Assembly (NCBI RefSeq): GCF_036711975.1
Contig: NC_091972.1
Location: forward strand, 32,679,001 to 32,743,000
From: Onthophagus taurus
Lineage: Eukaryota > Arthropoda > Insecta > Coleoptera > Scarabaeidae
DNA length: 64,000 nt
Reading direction: 5' to 3'
In this document: one piece after another, positions 39,067-59,385 of the stretch
Position numbering within the stretch: the stretch's first letter is position 1
Layout of the letters: each line of letters begins with the position of its first letter
Made by a program: the position numbers and the translations under genes
Notes under the pieces: generated by a model
The model's input: the letters and a program-made list of their open reading frames with translations, nothing else
Told to the model about the DNA's origin: nothing
The model's database searches: none

Positions 39067-40210
39067 ATGGGTGATAATCAACAATTCAATTACGTAAAAT
39101 TAAAAAATTTCGAAGGATGTTATATGCCTTCGAATTTTTTTATAACCAAAGAAAGAATTGAAGATTTTGAAGTAAGAAATGAAGATATTTGGGTTACATC
39201 TTATCCAAAAGCAGGTAGTTTAAAACAATTTTGAAATAAAAAATTTAAATAATTTAAAAATACTTTTTAAGGCACCACCTGGACACAAGAAATGGTTTGG
39301 TTAATAGCAAACGATTTAGATTATGAAGGCGCTAAAGTTGATTTAGATTATAGATTTCCATTTATTGAGTAAGTTTACTTTTTAATTTGTTTTCATTTTA
39401 AATTAATTTAAATTGTGAGTAGAATGAATTGTCTTCTAACCTCGTTAAAAGATAAGTCACATGATCTTTATACCGAAACATTGAAGTCATGCGTATCTCA
39501 TGATATGATAAAATTATTAAACGAAACTCCTGGAAGAAGAATGATTAAAACCCATCTTCCTTGGTATTTTTTACCAAGACAAATAACCAATGGATTTAAA
39601 ACACCCAAGGTACTTTTTAATTATATTGTGAGGATTAACTCAATTAACATGTTCTATTTTTTAAGATAATTCATGTTATGAGAGATCCAAAACAGGTTGC
39701 AATATCTTATTTTCATCATAACGCAACAATCACTCCTTTATTTGAAGGAAACCTCGACGATTTTATCGATTTGTTTATTGAAGGAAAAGGTAAATTAACA
39801 ATTTATAATTAAAATAAAAATTAATAACCGTTTATAACATAGTTTTAAGTGGAGATTATTTCAAAGTGGTTCAAAGTTATTGGAAAAATCGCGATTTGCC
39901 CAACCTGCTAATTATAACATACGAAGAAATGCATAAGGATCTTAAAGCTGTAATTAAAAAAGTTTGCAAATTTCTTGAAAAAAATTACGATGAAGAGGAA
40001 ATCGACAAACTCGCCGATCATTTAAGCTTTCAAAAAATGAGAGCGAACGAAGCTGTTAATAAACACAATTTACCTAAACCTGGTGGAGTTGAATTTATAA
40101 GGAAAGGAATGACGGATAGTTATAAAAGTGAGTTAAGTGAAGAAATGATAAATAAATTAAATAAATGGATTGATGATAATGTAAAAGATCTTCCATATGA
40201 TATTAAATAA
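39067..40210 (+). CDS. Cytosolic sulfotransferase SULT-a, five exons
   Basis: Exons inferred: 39067-39214, 39272-39368, 39423-39609, 39666-39789 and 39843-40210. Introns of 53-57 bp have GT/AG borders and consistent phases; 307 residues, the usual size for the family. The enzyme moves sulfate from PAPS to a hydroxyl or amine of a small acceptor in the cytosol. The PAPS 5' loop is 'TSYPKAGTTW' (K48). The catalytic histidine is H126 in 'IKTHLPW'. The 3'-phosphate site is 'HVMRDPKQVAISYFHH' (R150, S158), and the C-terminal R-K-G is at 272-274. There is no signal peptide or membrane segment. It is first of four tandem copies, and AATAAA follows the stop directly. Substrate cannot be read from sequence. 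Confidence 0.88.
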
Positions 40211-40489: not shown

Positions 40490-43400
40490 ATGGCTACGTT
40501 TACATTAAAAGACTTTAATGGGTTTAAAATGCCACCAGAATTTAACGAGTATATAGAAAGAATTGAAAATTTGGAAGTGCGAAATGATGATGTTTGGGTT
40601 ACCTCTTTCCCAAAATGCGGTAAGTTAATTAAAATTTGTCAAAATAGTTAAATAGTTAAATTTTTATTAAGGAACTACATGGACTCAAGAAATGGTTTGG
40701 TTAATAGGTAATGATTTAAATTATGAAGGAGCTAAAACTGAGTTGGATTTTCGATTTCCTTTTTTGGAGTAAGAAGAGTAAATTAACTTTTTGTTTCGAA
40801 ATTAATTAATGATTTTAGGTGTAACTCTTTTTATGAGGAATGGAATAATTTTAGAAATAAGTTCAACATTAATTTCAAGGAGGCCGAGGATGAAGTGGAT
40901 TTTTTTGAAATGGTTGAAAAGAACGAAAATGTTAGATATATTAAGAGTCATGTTCCTTGGGATTTTTTACCTAAACAGATTAAAGATGGAACCAAAAATC
41001 CAAAGGTTTGAATTTTTATGTACATAATTTATATAGATTGAATAATGGGTTATGCATTTATAATTCGTTATGAATAATGTGTATACAAAATGTTTTCCAA
41101 TATCGCTTTTAGTTTTTGAGTATTTTAGTTGGGAAATTTTAGATATTAGTAATCCAGTTAAAAACGACCTTATCTTGAATTTTTTATCACGAGCCAAAAA
41201 TGTCAATGGCATTTACAATGAATCATAAAAGTTATGTAACAATTCATGTTCAATTAAAATAAGTATGAGTTCTTATTGATTATGGTAGTATGGTCAATTC
41301 TCTTTTGGAGTTCAATGTTGGTTATGTTTCGTATTTGAATTCTATTTGAATATTTGATTTGAATTCTATAGTTGTTATCAATCAATCATGGAAATAAAAA
41401 CTTTTTTGTCTGCTAGAGACAAACAAGTAGAATATATGGATTACATAGAGCATAGAGATAGTAGAAAAAGAGAAATAGAAGAAAGAGATAGGAGAAATAT
41501 TGCTAATTACAAAAATAGTTTTTCTGTTCTTGTAGTAACATGTTTAATCACTGACAACCTATTATAGTGGCGTTTAGTTATAATTTCTTAGATCTATTAT
41601 ATAAAATGACAGCTTTAGATTCTTTTAAAGTCTAAAAATTCTTAGACTAAAAATAAATTTGCACATTTTCATTTTGTTTATCACTTTCTTCAAATTCAAC
41701 ATCTTTCACAATCTTATTCGTCTTACAACATTTTGACATACTTTTGTACATGTCACAATAAAATACAATACCAACCCAAGGTGTGCACTCACCATCTTGT
41801 TTTCACTTTTTTCTTCTGCCTTAATCGCTAAGCTGGTTGGTATCATGGTTTTCTTAAAGACATCATTGGCGAAAGACTCAAGATTTCTTTGAATTGTCTC
41901 GACCGATAACACAAATTTATCTCGAGGAGGTGTGATCGACAACTTGTAAAACTCGCAGTGAGTCACTCGATAGTTTTCTTAGAAAAAAGATTTAATCACC
42001 TTGGCTAAGAACATTTTGCAATAATAATCATCTTTATGGTGAAAATCTCACAACTCTTCATATGTCGTCATAGTTAGGTTATCTGGAGCCGTTAGGTTCT
42101 TCAAAATCACTCTTTTCTCAAAATCACACTCTCTCTGATGTGATTTTTTAGATACGTAAAGATCAAGCTTTGGCGTTTTCGTCTTATTTCGGCATTTTTC
42201 CAATTAAATTTGTTATTTTCTCCCTGTTTTTTAATATTTTTTTCCATTGTTTCCTTTTTTGCAACTACAGTTTCTCTTTTGATCGTATTCTTGACCTTTG
42301 TAGTAGGTACTGTTTAAAAATTATTATACTCTTTATGCTGCCTATAGTCATATTATATACAACTCCTGCATAGATTATTGTTGGATTGGTTTTATTGAAT
42401 AATGGTTATTATTTTGGATGTTTTTTGCTTGGTTGTTTCCGTAGTGCTAGTTTTTTCAGCGAGTATTATTCCTAAATGTTTACTTTTTACTACACATTCT
42501 TTCAATTAATTTGCTATTGGTTTAGTCTTATTCTGTATGGATTGTTGACTCTTTTTTTGTGTTGGCATAGAATCATTTTTGGATTTAGGCTTACTAGAAT
42601 TTTCCAAGTTTCCATGGAGAATTTCCATTCATTTCAGTATTTTGTCAGTTCCTTATCGTAGGTGTTTGTTAAAATTATCGTCTATCTTTCTTAACTGTTT
42701 CTTGACTGTTCTTAACTGTCACATTGTAGTGTGTGCTGTTGAGATCTCTTAAAAAAGGGGACCAAGTACAAGTCCGCGGCACCTAACTCTCTACTTTTCT
42801 TTTGGTTGATTTTGCAATACCTGTTCTGACGTTATACTGTTTGTTGTGTCAGTCATGTTTTATTATGTTTATAAGTTTGCTGTAAATTTTGACGTTCTTC
42901 ATTTCAATCCTGGCGGGATACCTACTCCATTGTCTTTTCTATGACGATGAATCCAATGCTTTTTTCCTACGTTGATTTTCTTTTCCACTGTATCTTCGGT
43001 TATCCTTACGATTTGTTGTATAATCGAGTGCTCGTTTCTAAATTCATAGTGGTGGTTTGGAATAAATTTTTTTCTTTCAGCATTTTTTTCTTATGTTTCT
43101 GATTGTTTTTTTTGTTTGCAATTATTTTTGCTATTATTTGTTTCAGTTCTTCGATCGCAATACTGTAGGCTTCTCGTGTTATGGTTTTGTAATGCTTCGC
43201 TACGTGTTTTACTCGTACATGTAGTTTTGTATTCTAAGCGCAGTGTTTCGAATTATATTCGTCCGTTATGGTTGTTCTTTGGGATGCTACTAGGTGTGCA
43301 ATGGTTGCTATGCTTATCTATTCCCGTATAATACCGTAGTTATTTTCCATTTCGATTCAGGTCTTCTGCTGTTAGATCTTCAAGTCGTCTATCCTGCTCT

Positions 43401-45692
43401 GTTTGATTAATTTTATCAATTTCGTCATCTAGTTCCTTATTCATATTATTTTTTAATTAGTTTCTTTTCATTCATTAGTTGTCTTAGGTTAGTCTTGTTT
43501 TAAACGCGTCGTATTGGGTTTTGTAGTGCTGCTGCTGTGGTTGCACTTGTTGTGTCAGGTTGCATGTTTTGTATGGCTTCTTCTATGCTCAAATTCTTGA
43601 TTATAGCAATGTCTATTATAATTATTAAACCGTTGACTACGTGAATGAGTGTCAGTTGTACGGGTCACCCGTTCTCATTCGTTCTCTTCGGCGATTTTCT
43701 AGAACTTCTTGTGCCGTTTAATTTGTAGCTGTTCCAGTCTGGGTGGCATTTAGGTCTAGAACCCACATTGCACAATGTTATCATTTAAATGTAGTAATTC
43801 CTCACATAGCCTATTGGATAAGTTGTTAGGCTACGTTCTATAATGGGATCAACTTCCACAATATATTCTGACAGGTTGATCAGCTGTTAATTCTATTTTA
43901 GGAACTTCAACACAGTTGTCACTATCTATGTGATCCTCTTATTTTTCATAAGCTCGGCAAAATGAGTTTAAAAATCAATGAAATTATTTGTACAATGTGG
44001 TGTGTATGTTTCCACATTGATTTCATATAGCTTCTGGTCTTGTGTCCATATATTTTGGCGTGTGGCAGTGCTGTTTTTATAAAGACAGCTTTCTGTTGCT
44101 TCTTCTAGTAGTTGTTTCCTGAGGTTGGGACTGTTTGGATTTTTAGCACGTTTAATTGATGTTGAAAGATGGTCTCCGCATCCTTCACAAGGAGTGCTTA
44201 TCTTTAGTTTTTGGATTATTTTGAACTTAGTTCCTTCCTAGTTTCGCTTAGAACCATTATGGCCATTTCTCCTTCCTTGTCGTTCTTTCTCGTTACTTTA
44301 CTTGTTGGGTGGCCTACTTCCATTACGTCTTTCTCAACTTTTTGCATTGTTCCCCTCAACACTACATTTAGTTGTTTTTCTGCTTTTAAGTCGTGTATGT
44401 AGAACCGGAACTTCTCTCTCTAATGTTTTCTTCAATTTTCGGTAGTCGTCTTCGGTTTCTGGTCAATGTTAATCTCTTCAGCTACGAGCTTGGTTAAACT
44501 ACACCAAATTATTTATTGAATAAATAAAATTATTTTGTTGTTAATCACTTGGTTAACCATTCGGGATTCTATTTACAGTTCATATTAAGGTTGTGATCTT
44601 ACTTTTTGTCATTTCTGCCGGTTGCGTCCTAACATCTCTCTTATCTTGGTTAGGTTTTTGATTGCTAGTTTGATACTTTGTATATATCTTCGTGCGCTCT
44701 TCCGTTTCTATTTTTGTATCATTGTCGGTTTCATCTATATTAACTCTTTCGTCTTTTAAGTTTGAAAGTCGATTGTTATTCTTTACTGCATAGTCATATT
44801 CGCCTTCAATTTTCTTTTTCATAGTGCACCTCGGGATTTTAAATTTCTGCTCCTCCTTTCACCATTAGCATACTAGCAGTAGTTCTCAAGTTTATTATCA
44901 GAGTGCTTTGTGCAGTTTTTCAAAAATATCTTGCATTTCCTTCTCATTTTTGCTACTTAATTGATATTAGAAAATTTAAAAATGTTTCTTTTTGTATTTA
45001 GCGAGTAAATATAACTTCATCACCTTTTTATATCTCTCAATTTTAGATAATACATGTTATAAGAAATCCAAAACAAGTCGTCTCTTCTTATTACAATCAC
45101 GCAGCGAATGTACATATACAGTTTGTCGGAACATTAGAAGAATACATAGAATTTTTTATGCAAGGACGTCGTAAGTAAACCTTACCAAAGGTGTCTGACT
45201 GAACGTATTCTCAAAATTTCAGTCTCATATTATTAGGTGTTTAGTTTCGATCCGATCAGACACTAAATATTAAGCAATTGCAATCTTAAGCCAATTTAAT
45301 ATAAAATTTATTTTACAGAATTATATGGTGATTATTTTCGAACAGTTTTGAGTTATTGGAATCAAAGACATCTACCAAATTTATTAATATTAACTTACGA
45401 AGAGATGCACGCCGATTTAATATCAGTAATCAAAAAAGTTTCTGATTTTCTGGGAAAATCTTATTCGGAAGATGAAATAAAGAAATTAGCTCATCATTTA
45501 AGTTTCGATCAAATGAAGAAAAACGTTGCTGTAAATGGGCAGTTGTATATCAAAGATGAGAGTCGTCAATTTATAAGAACGGGAACTGTTGATAGTTACA
45601 AAGAAGAGTTTACACCCGAAATGATTTCAAAGCTTGACGAATGGATATCAAAAAATGTAATTGGAACGGGATTACCATACGAAAAGCAATGA
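40490..45692 (+). CDS. Cytosolic sulfotransferase SULT-b, five exons with a 4-kb intron
   Basis: Exons inferred: 40490-40619, 40672-40768, 40819-41005, 45047-45170 and 45319-45692; 303 residues. Phases are identical to the neighbouring copies, which supports joining exons 1-3 to exons 4-5 across the long third intron (41006-45046). PAPS loop 'TSFPKCGTTW' (K42); catalytic H120 in 'IKSHVPW'; 3'-phosphate site 'HVIRNPKQVVSSYYNH'; C-terminal 'FIRTGTVDSYK', so R-K-G reads R-T-G. It starts 279 bp after SULT-a. Intron 4 (148 bp) is also longer than in the sister genes. All catalytic residues are present, so it should be active if the long intron is spliced. Alternatively the two ends are parts of two genes. 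Confidence 0.8.
41006..45046 (-). other. Intron 3 of SULT-b, filled with transposon debris
   Basis: About 4 kb with no host exon visible. Minus-strand open pieces at 44822-44580 (lysine- and glutamate-rich, like a LINE ORF1 start) and near 44400-44150 ('TMQKVEKDVMEVGHPTSKVT', 'EGEMAIMVLSETRKEL') suggest an old minus-strand element, perhaps a LINE. I cannot identify an RT core. Another minus-strand frame at 41966-41706 (86 codons) has no recognised motif. The + strand is pyrimidine-rich over 42100-43500. Confidence 0.4.
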
Positions 45693-45858: not shown

Positions 45859-47015
45859 ATGAGTTCTGATAAACTTTATTCTAGTATTAATTTAAAAAAT
45901 GTCGAAAATTGTTATATGCCACCTGATTTTTTCTTGATAAAAGAAAAAATCGAACATTTTCAAGTAAGAAATGATGATATTTGGGTTACCTCTTATCCGA
46001 AAGCAGGTAAATATAAAAACAATTAAATTATTCTCTAACTCTAACAAAACATTTAAAGGTACCACATGGACTCAAGAAATGGTGTGGTTAATCGCTAACG
46101 ATTTAAATTATGAAGGAGCTAAAATTGATTTAGATCTTCGTTTCCCAATGATTGAGTATTTACCTTTGAAAATCTTTGTCATAACATCTTTTTTAAAATT
46201 ATTTTTTTAAAGAATTAATTGTTTGCCAAAAGTTTTGATCGAATTTGGGAAAAAGCACGATTTATTTAGTATCGAACGATTAAATATGCTTCGTTTACCT
46301 GACATCATAAAAATCTTAGACGAAAGTAATGGGCAAAGATTTATTAAAACGCATCTTCCTTGGTATTTATTACCGAGACAAATCATAGAAGGTTTAAAAA
46401 CTCCGAAGGTTTGTAATATTCTTTTAATAAGCTTATAAAAGTTAAAATTAATTTCACCAAGATTATCCACGTAATGAGAGACCCAAAACAAGTAGCAACA
46501 TCTTATTATCATCATTGCTCAAACATTTTTCCAGTATATAAAGGTGATCTCAACACTTTTATAGATTTATATATTCAAGGAAAAGGTAAAACCATTCAAT
46601 TGTAAACCCACCATTTACTTAAATAACTTTTTTATGTTTAGTATTAATCGGCGATTACTTTAACGTTGTTTTAAGCTACTGGAAACGACGTAATTTACCA
46701 AACATACTGTTTTTAACATATGAAGAAATGTATTCAGATTTAAAAGGAGTTGTTAATAAAGTTTCAAATTTTCTTGGGAAAAGTTACAGCGAAAACGAAA
46801 TTGATGAACTTGTCCAACATCTCAGCTTTGATCAGATGAAAATAAACAAAGCTGTTAATAAGGAAAGTGTTGTTCAAACTGAGGACGCTCGATTTATGAG
46901 AATCGGGAAAACGGATAGTTATAAAACCGAATTAAACGAAGAAATGATTGATAAATTAAATAAATGGGTTTTGGAGAATGTGAAAGGAACCAATTTACCG
47001 TATGAAACATCTTAA
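45859..47015 (+). CDS. Cytosolic sulfotransferase SULT-c, five exons
   Basis: Exons inferred: 45859-46006, 46059-46155, 46213-46408, 46462-46585 and 46642-47015; 312 residues, introns of 52-57 bp. It starts only 166 bp after the stop of SULT-b. PAPS loop 'TSYPKAGTTW' (K48), catalytic H129 in 'IKTHLPW', 3'-phosphate site 'HVMRDPKQVATSYYHH', C-terminal 'FMRIGKTDSYK' (R-K-G reads R-I-G). The donor of intron 2 is the weak GTATTT. It is closest in sequence to SULT-d; exons 3-5 of the two are near copies, so SULT-c is the likely active sister of that pseudoenzyme. An AATAAA lies near 47063. Confidence 0.88.
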
Positions 47016-47311
47016 ATTTTTAAAGATAGAATATTTTTTATCAAAACAAAAGTTGTTATGAAATAAAGAAAGTAATAATTTTTAAGATCATTAATATTTT
47101 TTATTATTCATAAGATGAAAAAAAAATTATTATATTAAATTAATTTTGTTGTCGGGGAATTTTGGTATTAAATGGAAAAAAATGTGTAACTGTGTGTAAT
47201 TGCAGAAGGTGAGGGTGATGTTATCTTCAAAAATACAAGATAAAAAAGATTTCGATTTAATTTAGACATAGAGGGTTAATTGAGACAGTACACATACTAT
47301 TTCTCGCATTA
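47016..47311. other. Downstream flank of SULT-c
   Basis: AT-rich non-coding sequence with the polyadenylation signal of SULT-c near 47063. It ends at the mariner-like insertion. Confidence 0.5.
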
Positions 47312-47313
47312 TA

Positions 47314-48978
47314 CAGGGTGATTCATTAGCTCTATGACAAACTTTGGCAGATGAAAGGTGATGCGATTCTAAGGAAAAAATGTTATATGAATATGGGTCC
47401 GATTCATTTTGGTTAAAGAGTTACAAGCCTTTGAAAATTTTACACAGTTTAATAGGCAAATGAAAATGTAACATAACAAATAAGTTTAAAAATTACAAAA
47501 ATTGTTCGAAATGTCCGCCTTCAGCTTGAATGCACGCTTCACATCGACGAAGTAAAGATTTGCAACAATAATTATGAAACACAAATACAGAGTTGGCTGT
47601 GATAACAAAACTGAGTTCTTTATGTCAAACATTTCAATTTACTCTATTCTGTGTGTTTCAAAGTTTATAATTGTCAGAGTTTTGATCGAAAACGAAAATG
47701 CATGTATTTACGACTGAAGAATATGCAGATATTATTTTTGTATACGGGCTTTGTAACGGAAACGCTCGGCAAGCAGCAAGAGAATACCTTCGTAGGTTTC
47801 CAAATAGACATCAATGTGCCCATATAAACACTATATGGAAATATATGGAAATGATGCACTATATTTAGTGCATCATTTCGCAGACTGAGAGAAACAGGTA
47901 ACCCCGCTCCACTACATTTCGTTCGTCCCCATGATGTGAATGTACAAAATGAAGAACGTGTTATTGATTTAGTACTTGACGACCCTTCAATTAGTACTCG
48001 GCGTATAGCGAGCATGTTACAAATATCCCAAAGTTTTGTATGGCGTGTATTGAATCGAGAAATATTACATCCGTTTCATCGCCAAAATGTTCAAGCATTA
48101 CATCCTGGAGATACTGAGCAACGCTTAGCATTTTGCCACTGGATTATTCAGCAACATGCTCAAAATAATAACTTCATTTCCCAAGTTCTGTGGTCTGATG
48201 AAGCGTGTTTCACTAGGGACGGCATAAATAATTATCATAACGAACATGTGTGGTCCTTGCAAAATCCACATGCAATTAGACCAGGAAGATTTCAGCAACG
48301 GTTTAGTGTAAACGTTTGGGGTGGCATTTTTAACAATTCTTTGCTACCTGTATGGGTGATAAATGAACGCTTAAATGCAAATATGTACAGAAATTTCTTG
48401 GGACATAACCTTTTCGATGTTATCAACGACGTACCACTTAACATCGTCCAAAATATGTGGTATCAGCACGATGGTGCACCACCACATCGAGGAAGAGAAG
48501 TCATCGCTTGGTTACATGAACATTTTCCAAACAAATGGATTGGCAATGGAGGTCCAGTAGTCTAGCCACCACGATCCCCAGATCTAAATCCGCTGGATTA
48601 TTATTTCTGGGGACACATGAAGCAGCTTGTGTACCATGTAGAAATTACTACCCGTCAGCAACTACTGGACAGAATTCAAGATGCAGCTAATAGCATACGG
48701 AATGATCCAAATATCATACGTCGTGTGATAGAATCTTTACTTCGTCGATGTGAGGCGTGCATTCAAGCTGAAGGCGGACATTTCGAACAATTTTTGTAAT
48801 TTTTAAACTTATTTTTTATGTTACATTTTCATTTGCCTATTAAACTGTGTAAAATTTTCAAAGGCTTGTAACTCTTTAACCAAAATGAATCGGACCCATA
48901 TTCATATAACATTTTTTCCTTAGAATCGCATCACCTTTCATCTGCCAAAGTTTGTCATAGAGCTAATGAATCACCCTG
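47314..48978 (+). mobile_element. Mariner-like element with about 248-bp terminal inverted repeats
   Basis: Ends CAGGGTGATTCATTAGC (from 47314) and GCTAATGAATCACCCTG (to 48978) are flanked by TA at 47312-47313 and 48979-48980. The inverted arms extend to about 47562 and from about 48731. Because the arm is long, the last 20-odd codons of the transposase lie inside the right arm, and an inverted copy of them lies in the left arm. The element is in the space between SULT-c and SULT-d. Confidence 0.85.
47696..48799 (+). pseudogene. Mariner-like transposase with one frameshift and one amber codon
   Basis: The N-terminus starts at about ATG 47696 ('[16 protein letters not shown]', first HTH) and shifts frame near 47830-47870. 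A small palindrome around GATGCACTATATTTAGTGCATC disturbs the sequence there. The main frame runs to 48799. The core has 'VLWSDEACFTRDG' (first D), 'WYQHDGAPPHRG' (second D) and, after the stop, 'RSPDLNPLDYYFWG' (third D), with about 36 residues between second and third. TAG at 48563-48565 replaces the tryptophan of G-P-V-V-W-P-P-R-S-P-D, the same position as in the other mariner-like element at 20072. Confidence 0.78.
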
Positions 48979-48980
48979 TA

Positions 48981-49960
48981 TTACTAATATTACCTGCTTT
49001 TCTAGTTTTAAAAACGTAGGTATTTTATTTATTGACAGTTATTAAAATTGTCCTAACAAAAAGAGAATAGGAAATACAGTTTAATACATAAATATATTTA
49101 TTTATGCGGTTTTACAAAATGATTCGTAACACTTATTTTATATGTAACGGAAACATCACTACATCGTTACATTCTGTAACCAATTCTATGTTTCCTTATC
49201 TCTTTTGACTGAATTATTTTAGAACATTTTGTGAAAGCAATGTAAATAAAGTTAATTAATTAAGGTAATATGTATGAGTGAATACTGGATGCCTTCATTA
49301 TTTCAATACTTTATTTTATTGTTGTTTTATGGTTTTCATAACTATGTATATTAAATAAAACTGGAAAAACAGAGGTCCTAAAAAAGTAATGTTGTGTATA
49401 ATCCCCGTCTCCTTTTCCGCACTATCGCAGTAATTAAAATATTTTTTTTGAATTTTGTTATTAAACGACTTTGTTTGAAGAAACGTGGATTTATCATAAA
49501 CTTATCAAAATTCTGCACTCTATAGTAAGTATCCAGAAAATAAAACAAATCTGAACCAGCTTTTTTACATCATTTTCAAATCCCATAATTTGTAGATATT
49601 GCTGTTACTGTTTCGTTGTCACTTGTATCCCATGATGAGTATAGTTTACCTAAGAATGCACTATCACAAACTTTTGGAGCAATATCTCGGTAAAACGAAG
49701 ACTATTCAAGGACTATACCGGCAGTTACTTGTTTCGACAATAACATCAAGGAAAAGGGCAATCCAAATGTTGATGGACAATTATTGAACGACGCGAAGAA
49801 AATGAACATCAACATACAGACATAGAGTTGAATTTTATTTCCTTTGTCAACACTTCCATCATGTACCTGGGCGTAGCCTGCAACCTTCCCCTCTCAATGA
49901 TGCTAATTCAAAGATATTTTACTCTTGTTCCAGCAATATACGACGTCCAAAGACGTTTTG
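48981..49960 (+). other. Non-coding stretch with a possible LINE scrap
   Basis: Mostly AT-rich. Near 49830-49900 one + frame reads 'FVNTSIMYLGVACN', similar to the F-x-Y-L-G block after the RT active site of LINEs. An open frame of 62 codons lies upstream (49599-49787) without motifs. This is a weak hint of an old LINE piece. Confidence 0.3.
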
Positions 49961-52139: not shown

Positions 52140-54771
52140 TAGTGATGTAAAGGGTAATATTACCGAGGAAATGTTATCGGTAATTTTGGTAATATTACGT
52201 AATATTACCGCAAGATCGGTAACATTGGAAATATTGTTTTTTTTCCGCTCTATACTCTCATTTATTTGCCCAGCTGTACATGGCGTCACTGGCGCCGCGC
52301 GGCCGCACATATCGATCGGGGAATACCCGAAATCTAACTTGTGATAATTCCATGGTCCCCGTGGCCCGTGGCAAGCGATATTTTGTAAACAATCTTCATC
52401 ATAATTAGTGACATTACTGTTATAAAAGGTGTTGTTTATAACTATCAGTGCAATTCCTATTAAATAACTGTAATTGTTTTGCCTTGTTATGTGATATTTG
52501 AACTGGTAAGTCTAGATATTTTTAAGTTGAGCTCTTCCCGAAATGCATGATGTTTATTTTGTAGTTGCGATAATATGGTTAAGCCGAAGAGTGATGTTTG
52601 GAGGTACTACGATCTTAAAGATAAAGACAACTATTTCTGTAAATATTGTAAAAAGAAATGCTACCAGACAATTCCAACATTTGCTAAAATGTGTCAAAAT
52701 ACCTGAAAATGTAGTACAAATTCTTAAAAAAGGGAAATTGCCTATAATAAATGTTTCCAGTAGTAACAATAACACTACGCCAAGTTCAACCGAGGTATTA
52801 GAAGATAGTGATGCTGATGATACTGATACTACCTCTCAGCAGGGGCAGGGAGAATCTTTAGACTCAGAAATTGCTTCACTAGTGAGGCCTGTGCCTTCAT
52901 CAGCTAGTTTTTCATTTTCAAGTACTACCAAATCATCAAAGGGTACAATTTCTTCGTATTTTGATAACATGTCTTCTCAAGAAAACAATAAGATTGATGA
53001 AATACTCGCAAGGGCTATTTATGTCTCAGGAACCCCCTTAGATATGACAACGAAAAAAGTATGGTTAGATGTATTCAAAGCAATGAGATGCGCATATAAA
53101 CCACCCTCTCATTACCAGTTGTCAAATCCACTCCTCGAATCCGAGTACACTAGAGTAAAAGCTGCAGTTTCTTCAAAAATTAGTGAAGCACCTATCTTAA
53201 GCCTACAAATGGATGGATGGTCAAATTGCAGAAATGACTCCATATCTAATTTTGTTATTAATACACATCTTCCGGTATTTTACAAATCAATACACACCGA
53301 AAATAACAGACATTTAGCAACATTTTTGGCCTCACAAATTGAAAAAGTGTTGAAAGAATTAGGAGCTTCAAATTTTTTAGCTATTGTCACTGACATAAAA
53401 AAGGCTCGTGAAATAGTTAGCAGCAAGTACGATTACATTACTAATTATGGTTGTATTTGCCACGGTCTAAACCTTCTGGTTGAAGACTTCTTGAAATTAG
53501 ACCATTTTTCCAATTTTAAAAAGAACATAATTTCAATTGTATCTGAGCTGAAAAATCCGCAGATTTTACATGCAACGTTTGAAAAAATCCAGTTGGACAA
53601 AACGGGGCGATACATTTCTTTAAAATTGCCGGTGAAAACAAGACACTAAACATTCATTAAAAAGTTTAGCAGTTGTTGATAGCCCAGATATTCTTCTGTT
53701 GTATATTCTGATGTTCTTTCATCAAATACAGTAAGACTTCTTCTCCAAAACGAATTTTGGTTACAAATAGAAGCAACTTATGAGTTGTTCCAGCCAATCA
53801 CTAAGTGGATAACGATTTTTGAAGCTAACGGGCCAACAATCTCAAAAGTGTTTATCTGCTTTTTTGAAATAAGATCTATATTATGTGACAAAGTATCAAA
53901 TTTATCTATTACTATGTTGGAATACCAGAAAATGTGTTCAATTCTTGAAAAACGACAAAATAATAAATGTTTAAAACCCGTTCATCTTGCTGCTTATCTA
54001 TTAGAACTAAATCAACGCGGCGACAATTTAACTGAAGATGAAAATTTAATTGCAACGGAGTTCATCTATGAAACTGCAAGGCGTCATCCAAAGTATTCTT
54101 CACAAGTAGATCTTATTATGGAAGCACTCGCACTGTACAAAATTAGAGGTAATAATTTTGCTAAGGAATTCGTTATTTCCAGCGAAAAATGTATGTCTGA
54201 ACCTGTTTGGTGGACAGGAATTTGCTCCAGTTCTAAAATAAGTAGGTTGGCTGTAGACATTTTAAATTTACCATCGTCAACAGCCGCAACCGAAAGAACC
54301 TTTAGTACTTACGGATTTATTCATTGACACAGAAGAAACAGACTTACCGTGGAGAGGGCCGGAAAACGAACTTATATTGCCCATAATTATAATTTACTAA
54401 CTGAAGACGATCATTCAAAAATAGTAGAAGCTACTGAAGAAGAAATAGAAAAAGAAGATATCGGTTTCGAAGTTATAGACTTTACTCAATTAACGAAAGA
54501 GAAAGAAGATTCAGATGACGAGGTTGAGGATGATCCGGATGATGATGAGGATGATTTACCATTATTCACTCTATTACATAGTCCATTGTGACTTTGACTA
54601 GTTTAAAAAACGTACTTGTTGTTTTTCGTAATGTTTTTACAGTTTTGAAATAAAAAAAACTTGTATTACTTAAAAAGCAGTTTTTTACAAATTACCAAGG
54701 TTACCGTAATATTACGTAATATTACCGGTAATATTACCGATTTTTAAATTACCGGTAATTTTGCATCACTA
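52140..54771 (+). mobile_element. hAT transposon, 2.63 kb, with both ends and target duplication
   Basis: The ends TAGTGATGTAAAGGGTAATA (left) and the inverted complement ending AATTTTGCATCACTA (right, to 54771) pair. They are flanked by 8-bp duplications CACAAGCT (52132-52139) and CACATGCT (54772-54779), which differ at one base. Sub-terminal ATATTACCG motifs recur at both ends, as expected for hAT transposase binding. The internal gene is broken. It lies between SULT-c and SULT-d. Confidence 0.88.
52575..54591 (+). pseudogene. hAT transposase with BED finger, several frameshifts and stops
   Basis: The true start is probably ATG 52575 in a frame different from the long open piece. That frame reads 'SDVWRYYDLKDKDNYFCKYC', a BED-type finger, and then shifts near 52690 into the frame 'HLLKCVKIPENV'. 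The long piece (to 53649) has 'LQMDGWSN' with the first catalytic aspartate, and 'YGCICHGLNLLVEDF' (C-x-x-H). After stops at 53647 and shifts, 53785-54327 has 'ELFQPITKWITIFE' and the dimerisation block 'SSTAATERTFSTYGFIH'. TGA at 54325 interrupts what is usually H-S-K-x-R-N-R-L. 54349-54591 completes it with an acidic tail. Dead copy of about 650 residues. Confidence 0.82.
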
Positions 54772-55495: not shown

Positions 55496-56772
55496 ATGGA
55501 TTGTGATAAACAATATTCTAGTATTGATTTGGAAAATTTTGATGGGTGTCGTATGCCCCCTGATTTTCGTTTAATTAAAGAAAAAATCGAACATTTCGAA
55601 GTTAGAGATAAAGATATTTGGCTTACTTCTTATCCTGCATCAGGTAAGTTATTTCAATAACGAAATTATTTGGGAAAACAGAACATTAAATGTTCATGAA
55701 TCCATCTTTTTATGCAAAAAAAATCGCATACAAATTTTTCTTAATTTCATAACTAAGCTTCAGCATGTTCGTTATAAAATAATTTAGTCATTAATAAGAA
55801 TTTTTGAAGTAATCCTAATCAATATTATTTTAGTTACTTTATCGATTCAAGAAATGATATGGTTAATTGCTGAAGATTTATGCTACGACTTAGTTTGTGA
55901 TGTTGATATAGATCTTCTTTTTCCAATGATTGAGTATACTTTCACGTAATATAAATAATTGATTATTTACAAATGTTTCTAGAATTAACTGTTTGTCTAA
56001 ACATTTAATAGAATTTTGCCAAAAGAATAAGATATTTAATGATGAACAGTTAAAATCGTTTAATGTATCTGACGAAATAAAAAGATTAAATCAAACCAGT
56101 GGGCAAAGATGTATTAAAACCAATCTTCCTTGGTATTTATTGCCGAGGCAAATTACAGAAGGTTTTAAAACGCCGAAGGTTTGTGGAATCTTTTTAGTAA
56201 ACTTATAAAATTTATAATTAATTTTACGCAGATTATCCACGTAATGAGGGACCCAAAAAAAGTGGTAAGATCTTATTATCTTCATTGTACTAAATCTTTC
56301 CCAATATATAAAGGCGAGTTGAACACTTTTGTGGATTTGTATATTAATGGAAAAGGTATTTTAACAACATATTTTTCAAACCAATTTTTAATTAAGTTTA
56401 AAATTCATTTTTTTAAAATTACTTTTAGTATTGGGTGGCGATTACTTTAACGTTGTTTTAAGCTACTGGAATCAACGAAACTTACCAAACATACTGTTTT
56501 TGACGTGCGAAGAAATCAAATTAGATACAAAAGGAGTTGTTAATAAAGTATCAAAATTTCTTGGAAAAAGTTACAACGAATCGGAAACTAAAGAACTTCT
56601 CGAATATCTTGGTTTTTATGAGAGGAAACTCAATAAAGCTGTTAAAAAGGAAGGTATTGGCCAAACACCGCATACTAATAAAAACGAATTAAACCAAGAT
56701 ATGGTTGATAAATTAGATAAATGGATCTTGGAGAATATAAAAGGTACTAATCTACCCTATGAATCATCTTAA
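55496..56772 (+). CDS. Sulfotransferase-like SULT-d, predicted inactive pseudoenzyme
   Basis: Exons inferred: 55496-55643, 55834-55933, 55983-56178, 56232-56355 and 56429-56772. All have GT/AG borders and the same phases as the sister genes, giving an uninterrupted 303 residues. The PAPS loop, 'TSYPKAGTTW' in SULT-c, reads 'TSYPASVTLS', so the lysine is A48 and the glycine is V50. The catalytic histidine is N130 ('IKTNLPW'). The C-terminal R-x-G-x-x-D-S-Y-K segment that binds the 3'-phosphate is deleted (about 10 residues). The middle 3'-phosphate site 'HVMRDPKKVVRSYYLH' is kept. Sulfate transfer should be impossible, yet neither a stop nor a frameshift is present. It is a pseudoenzyme, or a pseudogene dead by missense and deletion only. 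Intron 1 is 190 bp. Confidence 0.78.
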
Positions 56773-57645
56773 ATTGTAAAAAATCAAACTTATTATAAAA
56801 TAATAAAAAGATTAAACAAAATAACGTTTATAATTTGCGTAGGGTGATGTAAAATTGCTTAACCAGGATTCGGGTTCTTGCTTTGTAAATAATAATTCAT
56901 TTACTATAATTTTCGTTTTATAAAAACGTCGTTTCAAAAAGCTACAACATTTAGATACTAACACATTGTTTATTTGAATGCAGTCTTGATTTATTTCCAT
57001 TATGCATGATATTTTTTTAACATGCCCGATATTACAGGACATATAACTTTATTATTATCTTCTAAAAACGTTGAGTTATCAAATAGGATGCGACTGCATA
57101 CTAAAAATCTATTAAAATCATATGTTTTATATTTTAATTTTATACAATAATAATCATAATAATTCTATATGTGAGCTACAAATTAAAAATAACTAATCTA
57201 AAATGCATATGGTTTTGATTAGCATACGGAAATAAGAAATAAACGAAGTGTACGTTATTATTTTTTAATATGAACATTCAATGTAGCTAGCAAATAAGGC
57301 ACCGTGTTAAATCGTCGAGAAATTAGAGTTACATAAGTCAGGAAGATAGTACGGTTGGAGCAGAAGCAGATTCAACTTTGGTGTTTCTACAGTTATTTAA
57401 CCACACTCGAGAGAATTTGTGAATATAGATAGTTCAATTTTACCAGAACATCTTCAAGAATATTTACAAGAAGAAATTTGGCCATGCACATCAGAAGAGT
57501 AGAATAGAAAGATGAAATCTTTACAGCTCTATCTATAATATTGTTAGGAACAATATTTGGAAACTGAAGTAACAAAGAGAGAAAGCTAATTAGTAGCTAT
57601 TTCTGAGTATGTATTAGATAGAACGATTTTTGGAATCTACTAATT
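56773..57645. other. Non-coding stretch after the sulfotransferase cluster
   Basis: AT-rich, with the presumed polyadenylation signal of SULT-d near 56800. No other feature recognised up to the 5' truncation point of the LINE. Confidence 0.5.
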
Positions 57646-59385
57646 CCAATATGATTACTCTCTCGTGACTCCAATCCCAAAAAATGGCAATCCAGCTGAG
57701 TTTTCTCACCTGCGGCCGATCAGCATCCTTCCTACTTTATCCAAGATTTTTGAAAAGATACTGGCCAGGCAAATTAAAGAGTATTTGACTCAAAATTCTA
57801 TTCTACCAAAACAGCAATCAGGGTTTAGAGAGGGGTATAGTTGTACTACGTTACTGTTGAATGTGTTGGATGATATAATCTCGGCAATTGATAGGGGTAG
57901 GATGTGTGCATTGGTTTTGCTTGACTACAGTAAAGCTTTTGACACTATTAATCACGAGTTACTGCTGTCCATTTTGGGTCATATTGGTTTCGAAAATTGT
58001 TCTGTGGAGCTTTTGAGGAGTTACCTGTTTGGTCGCCGTCAGTTGGTTCGGTTGGGCAACGAATACTCGGATCCCCTTCCGGTTCCTTCTGGAGTTCCTC
58101 AGGGATCCATATTGGGGCCACTATTGTTTATTATTTACACGTTTAACTTGCAGTCCTCGGTGAGGAACTGTAAAATGCATTGTTTCGCTGATGATACACA
58201 AATCTACATTGATTTTCCTGTGTCGGAGGCTGCAGCGGCTAATGATGTATTGATAGGGGATCTGGAGAATTTGGTGAGGGAGAGTGGGGGCCATGGCTTA
58301 AAACTCAATTCCGCAAAGTCGACTTATATGATATTCGGTGGAATTAGGGGTAAGGAAACTTTAAATGATTTTAGAGTTGAGGTTAGTGGTGTCACCTTAA
58401 ATCGTGTTGAGTCAGCCAGAAATCTGGGATTACAAATCGATACGGACCTAAGATTTAGACAACACATTAGTAATTGTATGAAAAAAGCTTATATGAACTT
58501 AAAAAATATATATGCAAGCAGGAAAATGTTGCCTACCAACAGTAAAAAGCTGTTATTAAATACTCTAGTGTTGTCTCATTTCGATTATGCCGATGTAGTC
58601 TACGGTCCGTGTGTTGATGGGCGGGATGCCAAGCGAATTCAAATGGCCCAGAATAATTGTATGCGCTTGATATTTGGGATTCGTAGACACCAACATATTT
58701 CTCACAAACTTGCTGACCTCGGATGGCTTAATATGGCCAATAGACGCCAGTATCATGCAACCTCCTTGTTCCACAAAGTGGTTCTGAATAAGACGCCACC
58801 CTATCTTTACGAAAAATTAACTTTTCGAACGGATGTTCATAATATTAATATCCGCAATCGGGGTTTGCTTACCATGCCGCAGCATCGGACTGCGCTTTTT
58901 GAACGGTCATATAGTTACAATATATCGAAAGTCTATAACCGCATTCCGCCTTGGACGAGATCACTGTCCATCCCGGCATTCAGAAAGCATTTTTTCTCTA
59001 CTACGTTTCTGTCGCAGGACTAATATTACTTCTTTTGTTTTATTTTTTGTTGTTTACTTACTAATCTGTTTTTTATTCAATGGATCCATGCACATGTGAA
59101 CCCGCAGTCAATGCAAGAGTAGGACGAGGACATTTTTTGTTCTGTTTTTCTTTTTGCTTTGTTGATTTAATTTCGGATTAATTTAAAGAAAATTTTTGGT
59201 ATTAATTTAATTTTGGATTTCAAGGTTTCAGTGGAAGAGCAACCGCTGCATGTCAGTGGCATTCAGCGGTTGAACTGCACCTTGGGATTTCCCACTTGTT
59301 TAGTATTAGTTCGTCTAGTGGAAGTGTGATATATTATGTTGTCGTATATTATTACAGGTGGGAAATAAAGGCATTATTATTATAA
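57646..59385 (+). mobile_element. 5'-truncated LINE with intact RT-to-C-terminus frame
   Basis: The copy starts inside ORF2, as usual for incomplete target-primed reverse transcription, and ends in a short ATT-repeat tail (59371-59382). After the ORF stop at 59023 there is a 3' untranslated region of about 350 bp. The good coding state suggests a recent insertion. The ATT-repeat tail resembles that of the minus-strand LINE at 11950-13180. Confidence 0.75.
57665..59023 (+). CDS. LINE ORF2 reverse transcriptase, 5'-truncated
   Basis: 452 open codons from a non-ATG codon; the real start is lost upstream. Fingers: 'FSHLRPISILPTLSKIFEK'. Palm A: 'LLDYSKAFDTINHELL' (catalytic D). Palm B: 'PSGVPQGSILGPLLF'. 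Palm C: 'CFADDTQIYIDF' (catalytic DD). Then 'RNLGLQIDTDL' and the thumb-like helical C-terminus typical of jockey/CR1-like LINEs, ending in 'NRIPPWTRSLSIPAFRKHF'. All three catalytic aspartates are present. The endonuclease domain is missing, so the copy cannot move by itself. Nuclear reverse transcription at a nicked target is the family role. Confidence 0.8.
   Translation: MTPIPKNGNPAEFSHLRPISILPTLSKIFEKILARQIKEYLTQNSILPKQQSGFREGYSCTTLLLNVLDDIISAIDRGRMCALVLLDYSKAFDTINHELLLSILGHIGFENCSVELLRSYLFGRRQLVRLGNEYSDPLPVPSGVPQGSILGPLLFIIYTFNLQSSVRNCKMHCFADDTQIYIDFPVSEAAAANDVLIGDLENLVRESGGHGLKLNSAKSTYMIFGGIRGKETLNDFRVEVSGVTLNRVESARNLGLQIDTDLRFRQHISNCMKKAYMNLKNIYASRKMLPTNSKKLLLNTLVLSHFDYADVVYGPCVDGRDAKRIQMAQNNCMRLIFGIRRHQHISHKLADLGWLNMANRRQYHATSLFHKVVLNKTPPYLYEKLTFRTDVHNINIRNRGLLTMPQHRTALFERSYSYNISKVYNRIPPWTRSLSIPAFRKHFFSTTFLSQD

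Follow-up and report, generated by a model that had tools for sequence, protein, structure and literature searches.

The window analysed in this work (the whole stretch of 64,000 nucleotides, C7:32679001-32743000) contained a cluster of four sulfotransferase (SULT) genes on the + strand, SULT-a to SULT-d, all with GT-AG introns and each with a terminal stop only in its product. SULT-c and SULT-d were separated by 8.5 kb. The four genes, the exons of SULT-d and the putative signals downstream were located as follows (window positions):

39067..40210, + strand: SULT-a, five exons
40490..45692, + strand: SULT-b, five exons; intron 3 of about 4 kb
45859..47015, + strand: SULT-c, sister of SULT-d, five exons, every motif intact
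55496..55643, + strand: SULT-d exon 1, ATG and first half of the altered PSB loop (PAS)
55834..55933, + strand: SULT-d exon 2, second half of the altered PSB loop (VTLS); one-residue insertion
55983..56178, + strand: SULT-d exon 3, KTNLP instead of KTHLP
56232..56355, + strand: SULT-d exon 4, MRDP and SYY, with the 3'-phosphate Arg and Ser retained
56429..56772, + strand: SULT-d exon 5, TCEE (Y to C), YLGF (S to G), 10-residue gap at R-x-G, stop codon
56802..56816, + strand: putative polyadenylation signals AATAAA (56802) and ATTAAA (56811), a pattern match likely to occur by chance in AT-rich DNA

SULT-d gene model and the SULT family of the genome

SULT-d ran from an ATG at 55496 to a TAA ending at 56772 (both positions exact), and its five exons encoded a product of 303 aa in which the terminal stop was the sole stop codon. 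The four introns were all GT-AG, with phases 1, 2, 0 and 1, identical to those of SULT-a, -b and -c. Spliced alignment with the SULT-c protein as query reproduced all five exons with zero frameshift events, and together with the gene model it confirmed the sequence-only reading that the five exons, eight splice sites and frame were intact; none of the disruptions that define a pseudogene (frame, start, stop, splice sites) was present. In the protein alignment, the two indels between SULT-d and SULT-c, of one and of ten residues, both preserved the frame, and small compensating gaps placed within exons 3 and 4 at the nucleotide level were taken as alignment choices, not frameshifts. An alternative splice restoring the PSB loop or R-x-G was considered and rejected, the spliced aligner giving identical exons.

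Several other features were observed in the window. Intron 3 of SULT-b (41006-45046) measured about 4 kb, versus about 50-190 bases for the other window SULT introns. Just 3' of SULT-c, an element (47311-48981) whose terminal inverted repeats of 250 bases were 99% complementary contained a transposase-like ORF (47855-48565) whose HTH_Tnp_Tc3_2 match fell below its cut-off. Stop-interrupted pieces of a hAT-like transposon ORF were found between SULT-c and SULT-d (52531-54591; DUF659 exceeded its cut-off, the hAT dimerisation match fell slightly short), and an open reverse-transcriptase ORF of 459 aa (RVT_1, 109.7 bits) was located about 0.9 kb downstream of SULT-d (57644-59023).

A PF00685 search of the same genome (290.8 Mb, 33 contigs) gave at least 27 exon-level matches, and the spliced aligner, run on 12 further loci, produced eight full-length cytosolic SULT models (SULT-e to SULT-l); L007, L008 and L017 were dropped for low, meaningless scores, and L018 yielded a broken fragment. 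The comparison set thus comprised 11 other full-length cytosolic SULT models, aligned with SULT-d as 12 genes, some of the non-d models having uncertain 5' ends and SULT-e a doubtful first exon. SULT-d scored 132.6 bits on the PF00685 profile (cut-off 22; profile positions 1-254 of 255) and SULT-c 214.1 bits. A DNA search of its own genome with SULT-d gave six matches, itself (100%) followed by SULT-c (73%), SULT-d being found once. FastTree joined SULT-c and SULT-d as sisters (support 0.995), on protein branches of 0.094 and 0.446 respectively; the earlier wording that SULT-d was derived from SULT-c is better replaced by a sister relation. The closest pair among the 12 was SULT-g and SULT-h (L021 and L002, both on C2; 91% protein identity).

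Cofactor and catalytic sites

The loop of active SULTs, P-K/R-x-G-T-T-W, was absent from SULT-d, which carried PASVTLS instead of PKAGTTW (K48A, A49S, G50V, T52L, W53S and, beyond the loop motif, T54I; SULT-c numbering). The catalytic His expected within K-T/S-H-L/V-P was replaced by Asn (H129N, KTNLP for KTHLP) and was kept in 11/11 of the other models. The 10-residue gap removed R275 and G277, and with them the C-terminal R-x-G of the 3'-phosphate site. This triple loss (PSB loop including K to A, H to N, R-x-G deleted), claimed by the sequence-only reading, was confirmed in the 12-gene alignment, which also revealed what that reading had not listed: two further cofactor-site changes, Y215C (TCEE for TYEE) and S250G (YLGF for HLSF), and the one-residue insertion in exon 2. 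T51, K127, R153, S161 and F251 were kept, so that the 3'-phosphate Arg and Ser of active SULTs were present (in MRDP and SYY); we take these two to be R130 and S138 of SULT1E1, after which the cofactor contacts were named (presumably R130, S138, Y193, T227-F229 and 257-259).

Single departures occurred in other models: SULT-i and SULT-j (L003 and L004) had R for the PSB-loop K, with His kept in both, SULT-f had SKCGTTW, SULT-k had PKSGCTW, and SULT-i had GKG for RxG. The PSB-loop K was therefore not universal among the 11 others. The combined loss of PSB loop, His and R-x-G was found in SULT-d alone among the 12 models, and in the seven close genes the number of changed cofactor/catalytic sites (those invariant in the other close genes) was nine for SULT-d, one for SULT-k and zero for SULT-a, -b, -c, -e and -f. 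The opposite pattern was seen in a dead SULT copy nearest to SULT-e (L018 2474-2751, minus strand, C8), whose three SULT-e-like pieces lay in different frames and retained RKG; residues 170-193 and 210-267 were not found between its pieces.

Among sites invariant in six close paralogues, 9/14 cofactor/catalytic sites were changed or deleted in SULT-d versus 17/74 of the others (Fisher p 0.0037), and among those invariant in all 11 other models, 6/9 versus 5/27 (p 0.012), in a post hoc test whose sites, within one loop or deletion, are not independent. In neutral simulations with as many changes as observed, enrichment was seen for the catalytic class (62/2000 simulations as high), other invariant sites were weakly depleted (0.219 vs. 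0.286 ± 0.053; 256/2000 as low), replacements were mildly conservative (93/2000 as high), and variable and hydrophobic positions were at expectation. When the simulations were run to the full fitted divergence, every non-catalytic class had fewer changes than under neutrality (0/2000 as low), and the catalytic class was not outstanding (436/2000 as high). The changes of SULT-d outside the active site looked nearly neutral; strong constraint on the fold is thus not demonstrated, and the case for a retained product lies mainly in the frame.

Absent stops and evolutionary rate

The serious rival to a retained protein is that SULT-d is a pseudogene or a dying, dispensable duplicate, which lost its active site first, has a product neither made nor needed, and is free of stops and frameshifts by luck or recency. 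Had the whole branch been neutral, starting from the SULT-c sequence, 15.2 stop hits would be expected; none was found (P of none 7.6e-7, and 4e-4 with the shortest yardstick, 0.42). The argument of the earlier note that a decaying pseudogene should collect stops was therefore quantitatively right (about 15 expected, none present, P 8e-7 if neutral throughout). A model with stops forbidden and omega free reached lnL -3176.11, against -3188.92 for neutrality throughout (2dlnL 25.6), -3183.53 for a gene constrained like SULT-c until its death, which left a fitted 43% of the branch neutral (2dlnL 14.8, equal parameter number) and -3184.38 for background constraint followed by death; 2dlnL values were taken as likelihood ratios, not tests, because some of the models were not nested. 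With times fixed at 0.42, 0.5 and 0.6, the forbidden-stop model was ahead of the constrained-then-dead model by 2dlnL 19.7, 17.7 and 16.3 respectively. Across the constrained-then-dead grid (neutral fraction, two prior omegas, two times), the probability of combining zero stops with 87 or more replaced codons was at most 0.0016. These models deal with stop codons only.

Evolutionary rates were estimated with a purpose-written codon model over the 302 codons common to SULT-c and SULT-d. With free branch times, omega of SULT-d was 0.57 (four genes) or 0.56 (seven genes), and 1 was not rejected (p 0.38 and 0.37). Since the split of silent changes between SULT-c and SULT-d was poorly identified with free times and the outgroups were near saturation, the times of both genes were tied, on the premise that they arose together. 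Omega was then 0.675 for SULT-d (profile 95% about 0.47-0.98), 0.197 for SULT-c and 0.112 elsewhere. The SULT-d value was distinct from that of SULT-c (p 1.3e-7) and from 1 (p 0.041). With four other outgroup sets it was 0.667-0.719 (p vs. 1 of 0.034-0.088, the highest with SULT-a as the only outgroup); leaving out the 36 lesion columns gave 0.608 (p 0.018), exons 1-3 alone 0.583 (p 0.041) and exons 4-5 alone 0.779 (p 0.37).

These values depended on the divergence assumed: imposed times of 0.42, 0.5 and 0.6 per codon gave an omega for SULT-d of 1.24, 1.04 and 0.86 respectively. Introns 3 and 4 were 84% and 75% identical between SULT-c and SULT-d (gapped alignment), the intron 3 alignment scoring clearly above shuffled sequences (65 vs. 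38) and that of intron 4 barely so (31.5 vs. a shuffled maximum of 31.0); alignments of introns 1 and 2 were no better than shuffled controls. The intron yardstick of 0.14 per site was a rough hand average of introns 2-4. Of the 186 degenerate codons at which both genes encode an identical residue, only 40 differed. Intron identity and the few silent differences hint at a divergence below the 0.25 per site per branch of the codon model. With omega near 1 and an uncertain yardstick, dN/dS alone therefore excludes neither neutrality nor adaptive change. The sequence-only reading had named a dN/dS near 1 as grounds for its own refutation, and this outcome was not clearly avoided: the tied-time estimate lay below 1, yet the range was 0.86-1.24 at shorter divergences.

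The pseudogene explanation agrees with this omega near 1, with changes that are distributed almost as under neutrality beyond the active site, and with the transposon-like ORFs between SULT-c and SULT-d and downstream. Against it stand the missing stops, with the low probabilities given above, the poorer fit of the constrained-then-dead models (by 2dlnL 14.8-19.7), and a start, stop and eight splice sites that are all intact. We consider it quite possible, if on the whole doubtful. The absent stops are stronger evidence than dN/dS for a retained SULT-d product, and selection probably still guards it at full length; SULT-d is a case in which dN/dS can be ambiguous where absent stops inform.

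Predicted role of SULT-d and known systems

An SULT-d that remains enzymatic, by way of another donor or another chemistry needing neither PSB loop, His nor R-x-G, would agree with the residues kept (presumably Arg and Ser of the 3'-phosphate site and Phe of the adenine site) and with the existence of SULT-fold enzymes of unusual chemistry, retinol dehydratase being among its closest solved relatives. In the Arabidopsis enzyme AtSOT18, however, the available text of PMC5482895 describes activity below detection for each of the single mutants Lys93Ala, Thr97Ala, Tyr130Ala and His155Ala, and residual activity for Thr96Ala. By spacing, Lys93, Thr97 and His155 would correspond to K48, T52 and H129, none of which is retained in SULT-d, and Thr96 to T51, which is retained; SULT-d has lost R-x-G too. 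In their accessible parts, PMC7694633 and PMC11275347 describe the PKSG and KSHLP motifs of SULTs as well as the catalytic His. A protein lacking the PSB loop, His and R-x-G would be expected to have no catalytic activity; the prediction that SULT-d is catalytically dead is well supported by homology, including the AtSOT18 mutants, and an enzymatic SULT-d appears very improbable. The definition of a pseudoenzyme (a member of an enzyme fold family that has lost essential catalytic residues) applies to it at the level of sequence.

Hardly credible is the idea that gene conversion from SULT-c keeps the frame clean without selection on the product: intron 3 is 84% identical and NG86 dS is lower in exons 4-5 (0.44 and 0.40) than in exons 1 and 3 (0.61 and 0.62), but no silent-site conversion tract was visible between the two genes (the longest run was reached in 3613/10000 permutations), silent differences were similarly frequent in exons 1-3 (20/84) and exons 4-5 (20/102; Fisher p 0.59), and several losses specific to SULT-d persist in exon 5.

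The reading we favour, as a probable one held with reserve, is that SULT-d codes for a protein, is a catalytically dead SULT paralogue and experiences selection that is weak or altered. As a tandem paralogue of SULT-c, it would encode a SULT-fold product unable to use PAPS, and it is presumably transcribed and translated. A clean frame despite a lost active site suggests, without proving it, that the protein serves a purpose other than catalysis. Through loss of the 5'-phosphosulfate loop and shortening of the R-x-G loop, the acceptor pocket may be open and cofactor-independent, and could bind a small hydrophobic or phenolic ligand (for buffering or delivery); as a second option, SULT-d may associate with SULT-c and thereby titrate or regulate it. 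The role of cofactor-free ligand binder is put forward solely on account of the missing loop and the shortening around R-x-G. The stronger proposal, a selected cofactor-free SULT with its PAPS site dismantled and its protein reshaped partly adaptively for ligand binding or SULT-c regulation, is tentative and seems rather unlikely.

If that stronger proposal is true, SULT-d would be a SULT pseudoenzyme lacking PSB loop, histidine and R-x-G together. Pseudoenzymes are described for major enzyme families (PMC5106787, as far as its accessible text goes); SULT-d would be a new example of an already known kind. An insect SULT pseudoenzyme was not found in the titles and abstract openings among the matches listed, although one may still be in print, and no paper was found joining sulfotransferase, pseudoenzyme and PAPS. 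SULT-d shares its family (PF00685) with the insect cytosolic SULTs, from which it differs by the loss of PSB loop, His, Tyr and R-x-G; the insect SULTs in the portions available of PMC9352109 and PMC9072122 are described as enzymes with cofactor motifs kept.

The best solved relative of SULT-d was 7r0o (Anopheles AGAP001425), followed by SULT4A1 (1zd1) and retinol dehydratase (1fmj), and the best of SULT-c were AGAP001425 and retinol dehydratase. We take AGAP001425 to be a mosquito protein and retinol dehydratase a moth protein, 1fmj being presumably of Spodoptera type; the genome is accordingly insect-like. SULT4A1, a vertebrate orphan SULT, was the nearest precedent found: loop 3 is shortened and the crystallised protein did not bind PAPS or PAP (PMC11275347, in the text available). 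It is nevertheless of another kind, because it keeps motifs lost by SULT-d: TYPKSGT, KSHLP and the dimer motif are retained in a highly conserved protein (same source), whereas SULT-d, although shortened near R-x-G, has lost loop and His and evolves fast. The status of SULT4A1 as a pseudoenzyme is disputed since its motifs are kept (PMC11275347) and there is a report of activity in fission yeast (PMC7694633), both according to partial texts. A motif-less SULT with an intact frame and a full-motif sister 8.5 kb away would be a cleaner system in which to ask how a SULT fold can serve in the absence of PAPS. Dead paralogues that regulate an active partner, such as the trypanosomatid deoxyhypusine synthase, offer a further likeness: in the part of PMC3663545 available, a dead copy exists beside a live one, as SULT-d would beside SULT-c. 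The trypanosomatid case differs in that its two copies form a complex and both are needed; for SULT-d and SULT-c the likeness is drawn from the genes alone.
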